From Dryococelus australis (lineage: Eukaryota; Arthropoda; Insecta; Phasmatodea; Phasmatidae): 64,000 nt of DNA. Made by a program: the position numbers and the translations under genes. The notes beneath the pieces are model-generated. The model made no database searches. It was not told where the DNA came from and saw nothing but the letters and a program-made list of their open reading frames with translations. The DNA lies in the NCBI GenBank assembly GCA_029891345.1, contig CM056993.1:108119800-108183799 (forward strand), given 5' to 3'. Positions within the stretch are counted from its first letter, which is position 1. Each line of letters starts with the position of its first letter. Of the stretch, positions 14,225-50,030 are shown one piece after another.

Positions 14225-16150
14225 GTAATTGTTCATGTAAATGGTATTTTATGTCATGCCCTTGTCGACACAGCTGCATCACACCACAATTGTCACCCTC
14301 GCTTTGTGAACAAACATGACATTACCTCAACCGGACAGGTGATCAGGCTTACTAACGGGGATTGCTCTAAAACAGTAGTCGGCCAAGTGACAATTACTAT
14401 CAGGATAAGAGATTAAGAAACCATAACTACAGCATTCATTACTAGAATTAACGAAGATATTATTTTTGGAGTACCGTGCCTCTCAGAGCAAAGTACATTA
14501 GTTGAACCAGCCGAACGTCGTATCCACTTTGGAGCGAAGGAAATATGACCAGTGTATAACATAGACAGCCGTAGCCATGAAGATGTACCTAAAGTATATT
14601 TATCAGAGTTTGAACATGATATACCCACAGTGCACCAAGCTGTTTTTCAGCGCTTGCTAGATGAACGTAAACTAGACTTCGTAAACCATGATGCATTATG
14701 CAGAACAACAGTGGCAGATCACACTATCCCATTGACTCAGGAAGAACCGATCTTCAGTAACCCCTGCAGCTACTTGTCACACCAGGCTAAAATAATCAAG
14801 CAGCAGATATCCAAGATGATTGCAGACTGGGAAAGGCCAGAATTATGTCGTCACTCGATTTGTGAAGTGGCTACTGGCAAATACCAGTGCGCCAGGTGGA
14901 CCAGGAAAAGACCACCTTTACAGCCCTGGACGGCTGATGGTATCAATTCTGCGCCATGCCTTTTGGGCAAAAGTACGCTCCCACCACATTCCAAAGTATG
15001 ATGGTATGTGTCCTCGATGGTATGATAGGCGAATTTACACTCGCGTACCTCGACGACGTCGTCATATGGTCGGAGATGTGGGAAGAACAGCTGAAACACC
15101 TGTCACTTGTACTCGAGAGATTAGAGACTAATGGGATCACATGTGCTGTAAACAAATGCCGGCTTGGCAAGAGCAACCTAGAGTTTCAAAATGTGATGAA
15201 TGAACAAGGTAACTGATCGAACCCCAAACAGCTGGGGCTGATTGAGAATCAGGCACAATCACAAATACGTAAATAATTACATAAATTCTTCGGTCTAATA
15301 AACTGGTTATGTGAACATGTGCAGGACTTTGAAGTAACCACCGTGCCCCTCAACGACCTGCTGTCTCCACAAAAGTGGTATGTGTGGGGTAGCGAACAGG
15401 AAACTGCTTTTCTGCAAATTAAGGAGAAGTTCCATGAATGTCCCGCTCTAATGCGGTAGGGTCCAGCAAGACACCTTTACCTGCAGACCGATGCCAGTCA
15501 GAGGCGACACAGGTGAGAGAATGGTAATCGACTTCACGAGTGCATATATGACATCAGCGAAAGAGAATGCCTTACCGTGATATGGGTGATACACAAGTAT
15601 AGACCGTACATAGAATATTGTAGGTTCATGTTGCGAACCGATAACCTTGTATGGCTCAACAACATGAGTAAAGCCAGGAGCACTCTTACGAGATGGGCAA
15701 TTTTGCTGCAAGCTTCCGATTTTGCTATCGAACTCGTACAAGGACAAGAGAACGAGCTGGCAGACACGCTGTCGCGAACGCTAGAGGCAGAAGTAAAGGT
15801 CACAGACGATGTCGGTGATGGAAGTGAATGTCAACAGAATAACGGTAGGAGAGAACGACCAGCTGATAGCAGATTTATACAGCGAGGTAATGACAGCGCA
15901 GGAGATTTGTGAATTTGCGAGGGAGAAGAGAGAGAGCGATGTGGGAAGGAACACATAAACAGATGGAGATGTGTACGAGGGGGTATCGAGACATACACAC
16001 CACGAGAAGATACGAAATGGAGACTGTATGTATCACCTAGTTACAAGGAGATAGTGTTTTAACACGCACATGCGATCGTAAAGGCAAGACACCCGGGTGC
16101 CGAGATGTTAGAGATGGTGCAACAGTTTTCTGTGTAAATCTTACATACGA
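14225..16150 (+). pseudogene. pol region of the gypsy fossil (PR, RT, RNase H, start of IN)
   Basis: The protease is marked by ALVDTAASHH (14257-14286). The reverse transcriptase has MPFGQKYAPTTFQSMM (14956-15003) and the catalytic LAYLDDVVIW (15042-15071). RNase H has FMLRTDNLVWL (15627-15659), TRWAILLQASDFAIELVQGQ (15690-15749) and the ELADTLSR end. Near 16030-16120 a HAHAIVKARHPGAE-like stretch fits the zinc-binding start of integrase. The catalytic integrase core is absent. Confidence 0.85.
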
Positions 16151-21503: not shown

Positions 21504-21967
21504 TATTTTATATATTTTTTCATTGGCCCATAAGGAATGTAAATTTCTTTACATAGTATCGTGGGTTTTACCGATCTAGAGCAATCGAATAAAAACATTT
21601 TGTTATTCGACTTTCCCATACACGATTGATTTCAGATGCAAAAAAAAAAAAAACAATAGGATATACTTGCATTATCTTGTCACATCAATGAGCAAAGCTT
21701 AGATTAATGCGAAATTTTAAGATGTAATGCCACTTGTTTTGTTCTGGCAACCATTACACAAGTTGCATAAAAAACTTTTTTATTCTTTCAATTTTCAAAG
21801 CATTTTCATGTTAACTACAGATGGATTCATGAGAGAGTAGTTTGACTGTACTCTTGACTTCAGTAGTCGGGTAATCGGAGTTAGTTTTCGTTTATCGAAG
21901 TTACCAAATAATGCAGCGACTGTTGACAGTAGTGGTATTGCGGTGAGTCTGGCACAATGTATTTTAA

Positions 21968-22102
21968 ATGGAAGCCGCAGAGGCTTGTGTGGCTGGTGAT
22001 ATTCGGCTAAACTCGGACGAGCTCGGCAATCTTCGGCTCGACTCAGGGGTGTTCGGATGTCTCCGACTCAGGTTTACCGAACATATCCAAAGGTGCTCGG
22101 CA
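21968..22102 (+). CDS. Possible first coding exon of an unknown gene
   Basis: An ATG at 21968 opens a 45-codon frame, starting MEAAEACVAGDIRLNSDELG, that ends exactly at a consensus donor (GGCA|GTAAGT, with the intron from 22103). The stretch is richer in CG dinucleotides than its surroundings, and a TCAGTAGTC initiator-like word lies near 21858. The repeated CTCGG/TTCGG words inside it weaken the case, because they could be a simple repeat with chance openness; the opposite strand is also open. No family is recognised. It is oriented away from the ankyrin gene, so a shared promoter is conceivable. Confidence 0.3.
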
Positions 22103-22257
22103 GTAAGTCTCCAAATTTTCTTCAAGTATATGTGTATGTTTCTGTTAGCCATATAGGTTTTATAGGCATAGGGTATGTCAATTCTTAAATTTGTATTTTT
22201 ATTAGATTTTAAAATTTATTTTTTGATAAAAAATTTATTATTTTTATTTTGTGTCGA

Positions 22258-22440
22258 AATAGTACTCTCTCTTTCATTCTCTCATTCCATCTCTTTATCT
22301 TCATCTCTCTCATCTCTCATTCCATCTCTTTCTCTCTTTTGCTTCTCTCTTTCTCTATATCAGTCCATAGGTTTTCTCCATGTCCTCCCATTTTTTTGTT
22401 TCGTTTCTCTCTTTCATTCCATCTTGTGTTTTACTCTACA
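22258..22440 (+). repeat. CT-rich simple repeat (TCTCTTTCATTC-like)
   Basis: Nearly pure pyrimidine stretch built of TCTCTCTTT and CATTCCATCTC words. It reads open in two frames, but the apparent proteins are only serine/phenylalanine/leucine runs. Confidence 0.85.
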
Positions 22441-23100
22441 TCTTTGTTTACATTTATATCTCACCAATCATCACCAAAGAACTGCAGGCACCTTAACATT
22501 CAATGTTTCACCCACTGTAACTCATGCATGATATTTTACACTACCAAATATCATCTTTCTGCTCTACTCGTCGACAACAGTCAAATATATACTGATCACT
22601 CATACCATCCATTATATAAATCAAGTCATACCAGGGCACTCAACATACACATATTATAAACAAAGAAAAACCCAATTCAACTGTACCTCCCAATACATCA
22701 AGCACAGTATCCATCATAACTCGAGCAACAATACAACTGAGGCCAGCCCATATCTTAGCACCTATTGGACTTGTTCTACCAACCAACACTTCTTATACCT
22801 ACCAACTATACCACCCACTATAACTCTAGCATATCTCAACCATTCGTTCACACAGACCATGCAAAGCAAACATACAACCCATACCAGCGACACAATCAAC
22901 TTCTTCTCATACGATGAACCATGCCAATCAAAATACACTGATCATCCATACCAAAACACTTTAACTCACACAACTCAAGCATGCCTTAGCATTACATGCA
23001 CACATACTGTCCACACCATTTGACATACACTAACAATCACAAGACAGATATACTGGAAGAAAATATCACCCAACATATCATCCATGGTAACCCAAGTATA
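22441..23100. other. A/C-rich unassigned DNA
   Basis: Low in G on the plus strand, with recurring words such as CATACC, CAACAC and ACTGATCA. It looks like a decayed simple or tandem repeat. No gene is seen. Confidence 0.45.
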
Positions 23101-23102
23101 CT

Positions 23103-23135
23103 GGAGGAGGAGAGGAGGAGGAGGAGGAGGAAGAG
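23103..23135 (+). repeat. GGA microsatellite
   Basis: GGA repeats with one shortened unit, GGAGGAGGAGAGGAGGAGG and on. Confidence 0.9.
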
Positions 23136-23180
23136 TTAGCACAAACAATCTTCTTGGTGACTTTAAGCATGTTTTAGAAT

Positions 23181-23500
23181 GTGTCTCTTCGTTTTTCTGA
23201 GTGCCTGAAAACAAACAATTAAAATACAATCACAACACATCACAAGGGTATATTGTCCCTAAGATTCACCGTATAGGTGAATAAATTTTGCTGTCAGTGG
23301 TAGCAGAGTGTAAGTGTGTGTGTGTAGGTGCTTGTGTGTGTGTAGGTGTGTATGAGCATAGGTGAGTGTAGGTATTGTATCTTCGTTTTTATGAGTGTCT
23401 AAAAACAAAAAATTAAATTACAACCACAACACACCACAAGGGTGTATTGTCCCTACAGTTCAACTTACGGGTGAACAGGTTTTACTGTCTTTGGTCCTAG
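23181..23500 (+). repeat. Tandem duplication, two copies about 195 bases apart
   Basis: Copy 1 (from 23181) and copy 2 (from about 23375) share CTTCGTTTTTCTGAGTG-type bases, AAAACAAACAATTAAA, CAACACATCACAAGGG and TATTGTCCCTA, with substitutions. GT-rich microsatellite DNA (23314-23350) lies between them. Confidence 0.85.
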
Positions 23501-23534
23501 TATGTATGCATCTGACATTTTTTAAAGTGTGTGT

Positions 23535-23691
23535 CACATGGTGCTCACATGTCATTGACCATTTGTAGTGTATAATTTTAAATGAATCACATGGTAGTCA
23601 CCTGACATTGCTCGTTCATGATTGGCTGTTGCTCACATGCCATCTCAAACTCTGGGGGTATATAAGGCGAACAGATTCGGACATCGTCTCA
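23535..23691 (+). promoter_or_regulatory. Strong RNA polymerase II promoter with paired E-boxes
   Basis: All elements sit in textbook order. E-boxes CACATG occur at 23535, 23546, 23588 and 23634, and CACCTG at 23599. The first four form two pairs, each 11 bases apart (one helix turn), in a duplicated word (TCACATGGTGCTCACATG and TCACATGGTAGTCACCTG) 53 bases apart. An inverted CCAAT box, ATTGGC, lies at 23621. TATATAAG is at 23659, an arthropod-type initiator TCAGTT at 23689 (start A at 23691), and GGATCG at 23718-23723 sits at the downstream-promoter-element position. It would drive the frames at 23716-24520. Confidence 0.75.
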
Positions 23692-23715
23692 GTTCTTCGT
23701 CTGATGCGACAAGTG

Positions 23716-24287
23716 ATGGATCGTCATATCTCTCATGACCTTCTTAGCATTCTGGCTGGCAAGCAATTTTTTATGGCCAGCTCTTCCATAAAATTCTGTA
23801 GGGAATTATCATTCATGCTCGTAAATATACCTAAGTATATTCCATTTTGTATGATTCAGATCCCTTATGCTTTTTATTATCTTCGTGCTCATAATTATAC
23901 CTGTTTTCGGTTTTTTGTGTTCTTTCCTTGTTTTGTATTAATAGTTTAATTCCTTTTTACATATTATATTAATTTTTGCGATTATTAACAGTATTGATTA
24001 TGTGTATTTGCAGATTTCATCCTGACATGAATCGGAGGCGAATGCGTTCTTCTGGTTATTACCCGAGGAAGATTTATCGTAATATTGTGTCTTTTACTAA
24101 GGATGTCAATAAAGTTGATAGATCTTGGACAGTTAAGATCATTGATATAGAAGAGAGTTATATTTTGTTGTCTTTTCTGTACCACTGTGGCCTTCAAGGA
24201 ATAACTGCTAAAGCTGGCAGTGGTTTGTTGGAAATATATTTCTTCAGAAGGTCTCATGTCGAGAAGGAGCTGCACCAAAGGATATGA
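23716..24287 (+). CDS. Unknown small gene, possibly two exons
   Basis: The first ATG (23716) lies 25 bases after the predicted transcription start and opens MDRHISHDLLSILAGKQFF. A GT at 23835 and TTTGCAG ending at 24013, with TATTAAC near 23984 as a branch site, make a plausible 179-base intron whose removal keeps the frame. The second part reads MNRRRMRSSGYYPRKIYRN, strongly basic, then a neutral region, stopping at 24287. I do not recognise the family. A basic start followed by a compact body could suit a nucleic-acid-binding or capsid-like protein, but there is no motif to prove it. Being next to the Polinton fossil, it might belong to a mobile or viral unit; its higher GC content argues for a separate origin. 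Confidence 0.4.
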
Positions 24288-24520
24288 ATGAGATTGATCT
24301 ATACAGGATAAACAGCTGGAAGACTTTTGCAGTTCATGATGGCAAAACAGACAACACAGCTGTAATTAGAGTTTTTGGTAATGCATCTATGTATTCACAT
24401 AAGAAGATGAAGATGGAACTTGGTGATCAGATTTGGTTGTATCGAAAATTAGTTAGTACTACTGGCAACATGCATATTCTTGGTCAGCTGAGGTCTTGGC
24501 CTCGTAAACATCTGGGCTGA
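24284..24520 (+). CDS. Unknown reading frame overlapping the previous stop (ATGA)
   Basis: The ATG shares bases with the TGA of the frame before it. It encodes 78 residues, including NSWKTFAVHDGKTDNTAVIR and LGDQIWLYRKLVST. No family is recognised. It may be a second cistron or the continuation of the preceding gene after a change of frame; the two readings cannot be told apart here. A third weak frame continues to 24773. Confidence 0.35.
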   Translation: MNEIDLYRINSWKTFAVHDGKTDNTAVIRVFGNASMYSHKKMKMELGDQIWLYRKLVSTTGNMHILGQLRSWPRKHLG

Positions 24521-48335: not shown

Positions 48336-50030
48336 CATACATACATACACTTGCAATTAGGCTGCCGCCCGGTGGCGAGCTCTCTCAACTCTCCTTCACC
48401 CAACCAACTCCTTTTCCACTCCCTTCCTGAATTTACCAACCCCTCTCACAGATACCAATTCCTCCCTCAACACATTCCACTCCCTCACAGACCTCACAAG
48501 CATGGACCCCGCTCCGTTCTCCTCCATACCCTCTGAAGCTTCACACTGTTGTTTCCTTTTCCCCTAAACACCCCCTTACTTAGCTTGCAGTGTAGCCCTC
48601 CCCATCCTCCCTCTTCATTCACCATCCTGTACATCCTGACTAACCGTTCAACTTTCCTCCTGTCCTTCAATGAGCTCCACCCCATTTCTTTCATCATCAC
48701 TGATGGCCTATAGTTCCCTTCTTCCTCATCATCCTGCCCTTGCCTTCTCCACCTACCCTTCACCCATCTTGCTGCTTTTCTCTGCACCTTTTCCAGTTCT
48801 CGCACCTCCACCTCCACATACGGGTCCCATACTGCTGCAGCATATTCTAACAGTGGCCGTACCATTGTGCCATACGCCTTCTCCTTCACCTCACAGCTGA
48901 CTCCATTCAGCACCCTTCTCAGCATACCCAGAGCCCTTCTTCCCTTTGCTATCACCCTCTCCACCTGAGGTCTCCCTGCAGTACAATCCCTAGATACTTA
49001 TATTCTGCTGCTTCTTCTATCTCTTGTCCCTCCCATCTGTACATGTCCCTGCTTATCATCTTCTTCCTTGTGAACCTCACTACCTTAGTTTTTCTTGCAT
49101 TTATCTTCATTTTATTTTTTCTGGTCCACAACCATATCTTATCAATGTCCGCCTGCAAATTTCCACCCCCCCTCTTCCACCTCAGCATATACAACACCAT
49201 CATCTGCAAACAATCTGATTTTTCCTCTAATCCCCAAACCCATGTCATTTACCATTATGGTAAATAACAAAGGACCCAGCACGCTTCCCTGTGGTACCCC
49301 TGATGTAACCTCCTCTTTCTCTGATATTGCCTCCCCCACTTTCACCCTCTGCCTTCGCCCCCTGAGAAAGTCCCCTATCCATTCCACTACCCTCCTGTCT
49401 GGTATCAGCGCCTCCACTTTCCTCATCAATGTTTTATGGGGCACATTATCAAATGCCTTCTCAAAATCTATGAAGCAGGCATCCACTTGCTTCCCCTCAT
49501 CAACTACCTGCACCAGATCCTTGAATAACCCAGCCAGCTGAGTCTCGCATGAGTAACCTCTCCTGAAACCATGCTGGGACTCCTCCAACCAATTCCTATT
49601 GTTCATTACCCTCACCACATACTGCACCACCAGCCTCTCCGTTACTTTTCCTGTACTTGATGTGAGACTCACCGGTCTGTAGCTGTCAGGCCTCCCCCTA
49701 TCCTCTCCCAGCTTGTGTGTAGGTACCACCATAGCATCCTTCCAATTTTGTGGTAACTTACCCTCTCTTAAGGACTTTTTAAACAGCATTTCTAAATATT
49801 TCGCCAACTCCCTGCCACCAAACTTTAGTGCTGCGTTTCCTATCCCATCTGGTCCCCCTGCCTTACTGCTCTCCAAACCCCTAATTACCTTTTCTATCCC
49901 CCACTCCCTCATCTTAAACTCACTATATACCCCCCAAACCCTGTTTGTCCCCCTATTCCAACCCTCCTTTGCCTCAAACACTGACAAGTACTGTTCTTGC
50001 AGCATCCCCGATTTTTCTTGGTAATAATTT
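48336..50030 (-). mobile_element. 5'-truncated LINE, copy 2 (same family as copy 1)
   Basis: The reading on the minus strand is much better preserved than in copy 1. One frame of 287 codons (50005-49142) carries SYRPVSLT, HGFRRGYSCETQL, ACFIDFEKAFDNVPH, GVPQGSVLGPLLFTIM and LFADDGVVYAEV. Then an overlapping frame (49248-48952) and a C-terminal frame (48964-48494) continue with LEYAAAVWDPYVE, LEKVQRKAARW and GWSSLKDRRKVERLV. So about two or three frame changes separate it from an intact reverse transcriptase. The endonuclease end is missing (truncated near 50030). The 3' tail is TGTA repeats. It lies in the NUDT intron, antisense to that gene. Confidence 0.93.

Follow-up and report, generated by a model that had tools for sequence, protein, structure and literature searches.

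A promoter-like stretch of Dryococelus australis DNA is very probably the decayed 5' end of a Maverick/Polinton-type DNA polymerase gene

The promoter-like stretch around position 23691 of the window (the whole stretch of 64,000 nucleotides of Dryococelus australis DNA analysed here) is very probably the 5' end of a DNA polymerase gene of the Maverick/Polinton type, consisting of an ancestral promoter and a spliced first exon, whose copy in the window has been cut off and has decayed. According to this model, host RNA polymerase II would have started transcription of the ancestral element at the TCAGTT initiator, placed by the TATA box at −32, with initiation boosted from upstream by E-boxes of the CACGTG type and by a CCAAT box. 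A first exon of 68 nt, carrying its ATG at +14, would have been spliced over an AT-rich intron to an exon for the zinc-finger, endonuclease VII and polymerase parts, and expression of the polymerase would have served the element's own replication. The window copy itself would be an old insertion, its gene severed at ~23902 by another repeat and its E-boxes decayed. The features are collected in Table 1.

Table 1. Features of the promoter-like stretch and of the element around it (positions in the window)
Feature	Positions	Strand	Basis or state in relatives
Maverick/Polinton-type fragment: terminal repeat, promoter, putative DNA polymerase gene start	21928..23902 (end approximate)	+	blastn to relatives; AGTAGTG end; gene downstream in relatives
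Outer part of terminal inverted repeat	21928..22265	+	both orientations in L020, L022, L024
CT-rich block	22266..22443	+	several tandem copies in relatives
120-bp tandem duplication, first copy	23182..23301	+	82% to 23376-23495
120-bp tandem duplication, second copy	23376..23495	+	
E-box pair 1, CACATG + CACATG	23535..23551	+	second mostly CACGTG in relatives
CATTTG, CANNTG word	23560..23565	+	in 4/39 relative rows; mostly CATTCG there
E-box pair 2, CACATG + CACCTG	23588..23604	+	second mostly CACGTG in relatives; duplicate of pair 1, 53-bp shift
Inverted CCAAT box (ATTGG on +)	23621..23625	−	ATTGG in 30/39 relative rows
Further E-box, CACATG	23634..23639	+	mostly CACGTG in relatives
TATA box, TATATAA	23659..23665	+	32 before initiator A; identical in 26/39 relative rows
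Initiator TCAGTT, predicted +1 at 23691	23689..23694	+	identical in 30/39 relative rows
Predicted first exon of polymerase gene, ATG at 23704	23691..23758	+	ATG in 33/39 rows; predicted from sequence
GGATCG at +28, fits downstream promoter element	23718..23723	+	identical in 26/39 relative rows
Predicted first intron start	23759..23902	+	donor GCAAGC in window, GTAAGC in 27/50 relative units (12/50 not found by the pattern used)
Other high-copy repeat replacing the polymerase gene, short broken frame	23901..24486	+	

The stretch had been described in the initial annotation as lying in otherwise featureless DNA. In fact, it is part of a high-copy mobile element, and the idea of a special host promoter under strong regulation, set in plain DNA, finds no support. 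A 501-bp query yielded 1494 first-look candidates, 40 of them being scored, namely the window itself and 39 relatives with 84-88% identity over most of the length, and shorter pieces were found as well; a 191-bp promoter query gave 386 candidates. The start of the repeat was placed by blastn comparison with 20 long loci at 21928, where it begins with AGTAGTGG.

The promoter core is linked to the polymerase gene at nearly all of its places. It was matched 55 times in 51 loci plus the window, and in 51 of these cases the start exon of the polymerase lies no more than 500 bp away; as L012 and L014 cover one and the same place, the start exon follows the promoter core at 50 of 54 places, the window being counted among the 54. 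The other four are one arm of L019, L027 (where the start exon is missing and later polymerase sequence is present), L069 and the window. An upstream-only query brought up 23 new places, from which 12 copies were taken. The idea that the promoter belongs to a repeat common to both element ends is not supported, since 11 of these 12 copies lead into the polymerase gene. In rearranged copies the promoter is present in both arms.

The words from which a promoter had been proposed are all where they were said to be. Two E-box pairs with 11-base spacing (23535/23546 and 23588/23599, start to start), an inverted CCAAT box about 70 bases before the initiator (ATTGGC, −70), the TATA box, the initiator with its A at 23691 and GGATCG at the downstream-element position were all recovered; the CANNTG words are likewise present, their number being six in 23535-23639 (starts at 23535, 23546, 23560, 23588, 23599 and 23634) rather than five. 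We take +28 to be the downstream-element position of Drosophila core promoters; in the polymerase gene model GGATCG at this position is coding. TATA box, initiator and downstream element are all kept at the exact spacing in 21 of the 39 relative rows.

How much of this could arise by chance was assessed with shuffled sequences. TATA box plus initiator alone is unremarkable: the window has 6 such combinations, and 60 dinucleotide shuffles had 3.3 on average. If the downstream word is required too, 1 occurrence remains in the window (mean 0.067 in the shuffles), and if the CCAAT box is required as well, still 1 (none in the 60 shuffles), while at least six E-boxes occurred in 0.85%, and at least two 11-bp E-box pairs in 0.05%, of 2000 local shuffles of 111 bp, all of these figures overstating the surprise because the words were picked after the sequence had been seen. 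E-box density is not unique to the promoter stretch either, since the densest E-box stretch of the window, with 7 CANNTG words in 111 bp, lies at 15051-15171.

The two E-box pairs are products of one 53-bp tandem duplication (identity 0.75 at the 53-bp shift versus 0.10-0.37 at 16 neighbouring shifts) and therefore are not independent of each other. Their 11-bp spacing is found in 39 of the 39 rows covering them, which is mostly inheritance rather than independent conservation because the rows share one ancestor; both words are intact in 25 of 39 rows for pair 1 and in 24 of 39 for pair 2. CACGTG, a type of site that suits bHLH factors, occupies positions 23546, 23599 and 23634 in 17, 22 and 19 of 39 rows, and CACATG or CATGTG, its forms after CpG decay, are found there in 12, 7 and 11 of 40 rows, respectively; the window has lost CACGTG at all three. 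Altogether, 39 rows of the 119-bp E-box stretch hold 59 CACGTG words, a density almost 40-fold that of the 20 long loci (0.34 per kb).

These figures bear on whether the stretch could be a mere coincidence of short words within repeat DNA that was no promoter then or now. The commonness of TATA box plus initiator, the degeneracy of the downstream word, the origin of both E-box pairs in one duplication and motif columns barely better kept than others (see below) would all agree with such a reading, but the absence of the full set with CCAAT from the shuffles, the location of the promoter core directly before the gene start at nearly every place and the concentration of CACGTG in the stretch speak against it, and we regard it as very improbable. 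An ancestral promoter of the polymerase gene remains our preferred interpretation.

Conservation within the family adds little to this choice. Outside CpG, conservation of the motif columns is 94.9% versus 92.7% for the others (39 rows, p = 0.025), and the p value rises to 0.08 if a dropped donor site at 23821 is no longer counted as a motif. CpG columns are kept at only 83.6%, and mean pairwise divergence is 13.6%. The faster decay of CpG may reflect methylation, and the rows look like copies of one ancestor decaying separately, with at most weak constraint on the motifs; since they resemble a star of neutral decay, motif conservation is uninformative as a test of function. The rows derive from 42 promoter matches in 39 loci, reduced to 40 by dropping two identical rows (L012, L049); the second arm of L017, which matches only from 23642 on, was left out of the 39-row counts. 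The 40-row version gave 94.3% versus 92.3%, p = 0.047 and a divergence of 14.4%.

Downstream of the initiator, the first ATG lies at 23704, 13 bases past the predicted start site, and the pattern of splice sites, with GTAAGC as the predicted donor and CCTGCAG as the predicted acceptor, points to a 68-nt first exon followed by an intron of about 140-230 bases. Among 50 unique units, 29 were scorable (donor, ATG and acceptor) and 21 were not by the pattern used. Of the 29 scorable copies, 27 have a fitting spliced frame, open in 26, and 2 have an unspliced frame that both fits and is open; the count for splicing is weakened by the one-in-three chance that a splice would be in frame in a single ancestor. 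In G+C content, the predicted intron (0.30) lies below both the sequence between ~23650 and the donor (0.48) and the opening bases of the next exon (0.47). Two junction-pattern searches for spliced retrocopies, the first of which used the donor at 23821 (later dropped for 23759), gave 0 matches. An alternative model, in which the polymerase gene lacks introns and its frame continues without interruption from the ATG at 23704, would be in line with vertebrate Mavericks, which are reported to be without introns (PMC8097293), and with several copies whose frames stay open for part of the stretch and on into the polymerase start. On the other hand, it has to accommodate both the near absence of fitting unspliced frames, as opposed to the mostly open spliced ones, and the drop in G+C between donor and acceptor; we consider it unlikely, and retain the spliced first exon.

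The proposal of an RNA polymerase II promoter near 23691 can thus be upheld as an ancestral function, given the gene that follows it, the ATG 13 bases on and the consistent splice pattern. Its extension to a strongly regulated transcript produced now from the window copy is not supported, as the gene is gone from ~23902, the three CACGTG-type E-boxes are mutated and the copies look neutrally decaying.

The identity of the element was approached through its coding capacity, ends and flanks. Open coding pieces downstream in relatives match the Pfam families zf-C2H2 (3.3e-06), Endonuclease_7 (7e-06) and DNA_pol_B_2 (5.5e-07); the latter, found on one open piece, marks the polymerase as a B-family enzyme of the viral/organellar type, for which protein priming may be inferred from the family. 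Two of the five polymerase pieces scanned had no Pfam match above the cut-off. The terminus of the element is AGTAGTG, and the terminal inverted repeat has (AGT)2-type ends. Opposite-strand arms were observed in 3 of the 18 loci with a leader match (L020, L022, L024), same-strand pairs in 0 of 18. Six-bp flanks with both ends in hand are available for two elements only, CACGTG/CACATG (L020) and CAAATG/AAAATG (L022), and agree at 5 of 6 positions each. On these grounds (polymerase, ends and flanks) the element, known here from partial elements, is best read as a Maverick/Polinton. An LTR reading was rejected because the 18 leader-match loci include three opposite-oriented pairs and no same-oriented one, and because a DNA polymerase gene follows the repeat. 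IMG/VR viral contigs, searched with a single 220-residue piece of the polymerase, returned two pattern matches, neither of them confirmed.

Several loci show unusual architectures. In L012/L014, L017 and L019, two arms in inverted orientation each contain promoter sequence, and those of L012/L014 and L017 the polymerase start as well; these pairs resemble snap-back deletion derivatives of a linear element. The inverted polymerase-bearing arms L023:7590-9501 and L057:3088-5000 are 99.9% identical over 1913 bases, family copies differing by ~14%; they may represent either a recent palindrome or an assembly artefact. Among the matches listed, either end of the window's contig has TTAGG telomere repeats, as in an arthropod-type genome.

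In the window, the polymerase gene is replaced by an inserted repeat ~210 bp past the start site, and blastn with two polymerase-region copies found nothing else in the 64-kb window. The donor of the first exon reads GC instead of GT. The inserted repeat (23901-24486) is itself abundant, with 3232 first-look candidates and 89-91% identity in scored full-length matches. Its short frame (MNRRRMRSSGYYPRK...) comes after a TTTGCAG that resembles a splice acceptor; this frame has no Pfam family match and only insignificant matches in PDB sequences, and several relatives of the repeat carry CGGAAGT-type words upstream. Elsewhere in the window, two reverse-transcriptase-like fragments (690-1882 and 48494-50005), judged by eye from their frames, belong to one family on opposite strands. 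Divergence from the commonest family bases is 9.5% for the window copy and averages 7.4% for the other rows (3 of 39 being as far or farther), and so gives no sign of constraint. The promoter in the window is probably a relic, mostly an ordinary one, and judging from its sequence the copy is most likely silent.

One could envisage that the host has taken over this copy, with its TATA box, initiator and first exon driving a chimeric transcript into the inserted repeat, by way of an acceptor near 24014 and an ATG at 24027. The TATA box, initiator and +28 word of the window are the commonest family forms, the inserted repeat has its own TTTGCAG ahead of an ATG, and several relatives have, within ~18 bp absent from the window, a donor-like GGTATGT/GGTATGC site, all of which would suit such an event; but the GC donor of the first exon, the downstream frame broken in two, the loss of all three CACGTG sites and the lack of any sign of constraint in the window copy count against it. 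Little probability is therefore left to host takeover, and the window copy is better regarded as a decayed remnant.

In a broader sense, what looks like a host promoter appears to be a mobile-element relic, which calls for caution when promoters are predicted in genomes that are large and rich in repeats. A working promoter would provide a mapped example of how animal cells switch on a Maverick polymerase gene; among the papers listed, judged by titles and abstract openings, no work addressed this switch, which is a weak absence. The family has scattered a CACGTG-rich module over the genome, with possible host use. A more far-reaching scheme, possible but doubtful, is that the replication gene of a Maverick follows a host-type promoter containing a duplicated bHLH module (CACATG-N5-CACGTG) and has a 5' intron, so that the polymerase would be under a host bHLH factor, and that perhaps hundreds of such modules are dispersed.

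Known systems resemble the stretch in part. The tandem E1-E2 E-boxes of BMAL1/CLOCK (PMC3043000) are two E-boxes about one helix turn apart, as here, but their spacer is 6-7 bp (with activity also at 16-17), compared to 5 bp in 39 of 39 rows of our family, which thus departs from the circadian E1-E2 element. Drosophila core promoters (PMC1779564) combine a TCAGTY initiator with TATA box and downstream element at fixed spacing, as here; TATA and DPE are negatively correlated there, whereas both are present in our stretch, and an older Drosophila set cited in the same paper had both in 14% of promoters. For the insect elements Sf Maverick 1 and 2, PMC5803895 reports integrase, ATPase, protease and capsid genes, none of which were noticed in the partial elements here; zinc fingers and a predicted first intron are features of the copies described here. 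With our family these elements share a B-family DNA polymerase and, within it, a predicted endonuclease VII domain, the scores of this domain being weak there (E 0.02 and 0.32). Vertebrate Mavericks (PMC8097293) differ from our family by the 5' intron predicted here and resemble it in the (AGT)2 terminal motif and mostly degraded copies; the 6-bp target duplications reported for them may have their counterpart in the 6-bp flanks of L020 and L022. Overall, Maverick/Polinton is a common virus-like jumping element of a kind already known, to which the copy described here would add a member.
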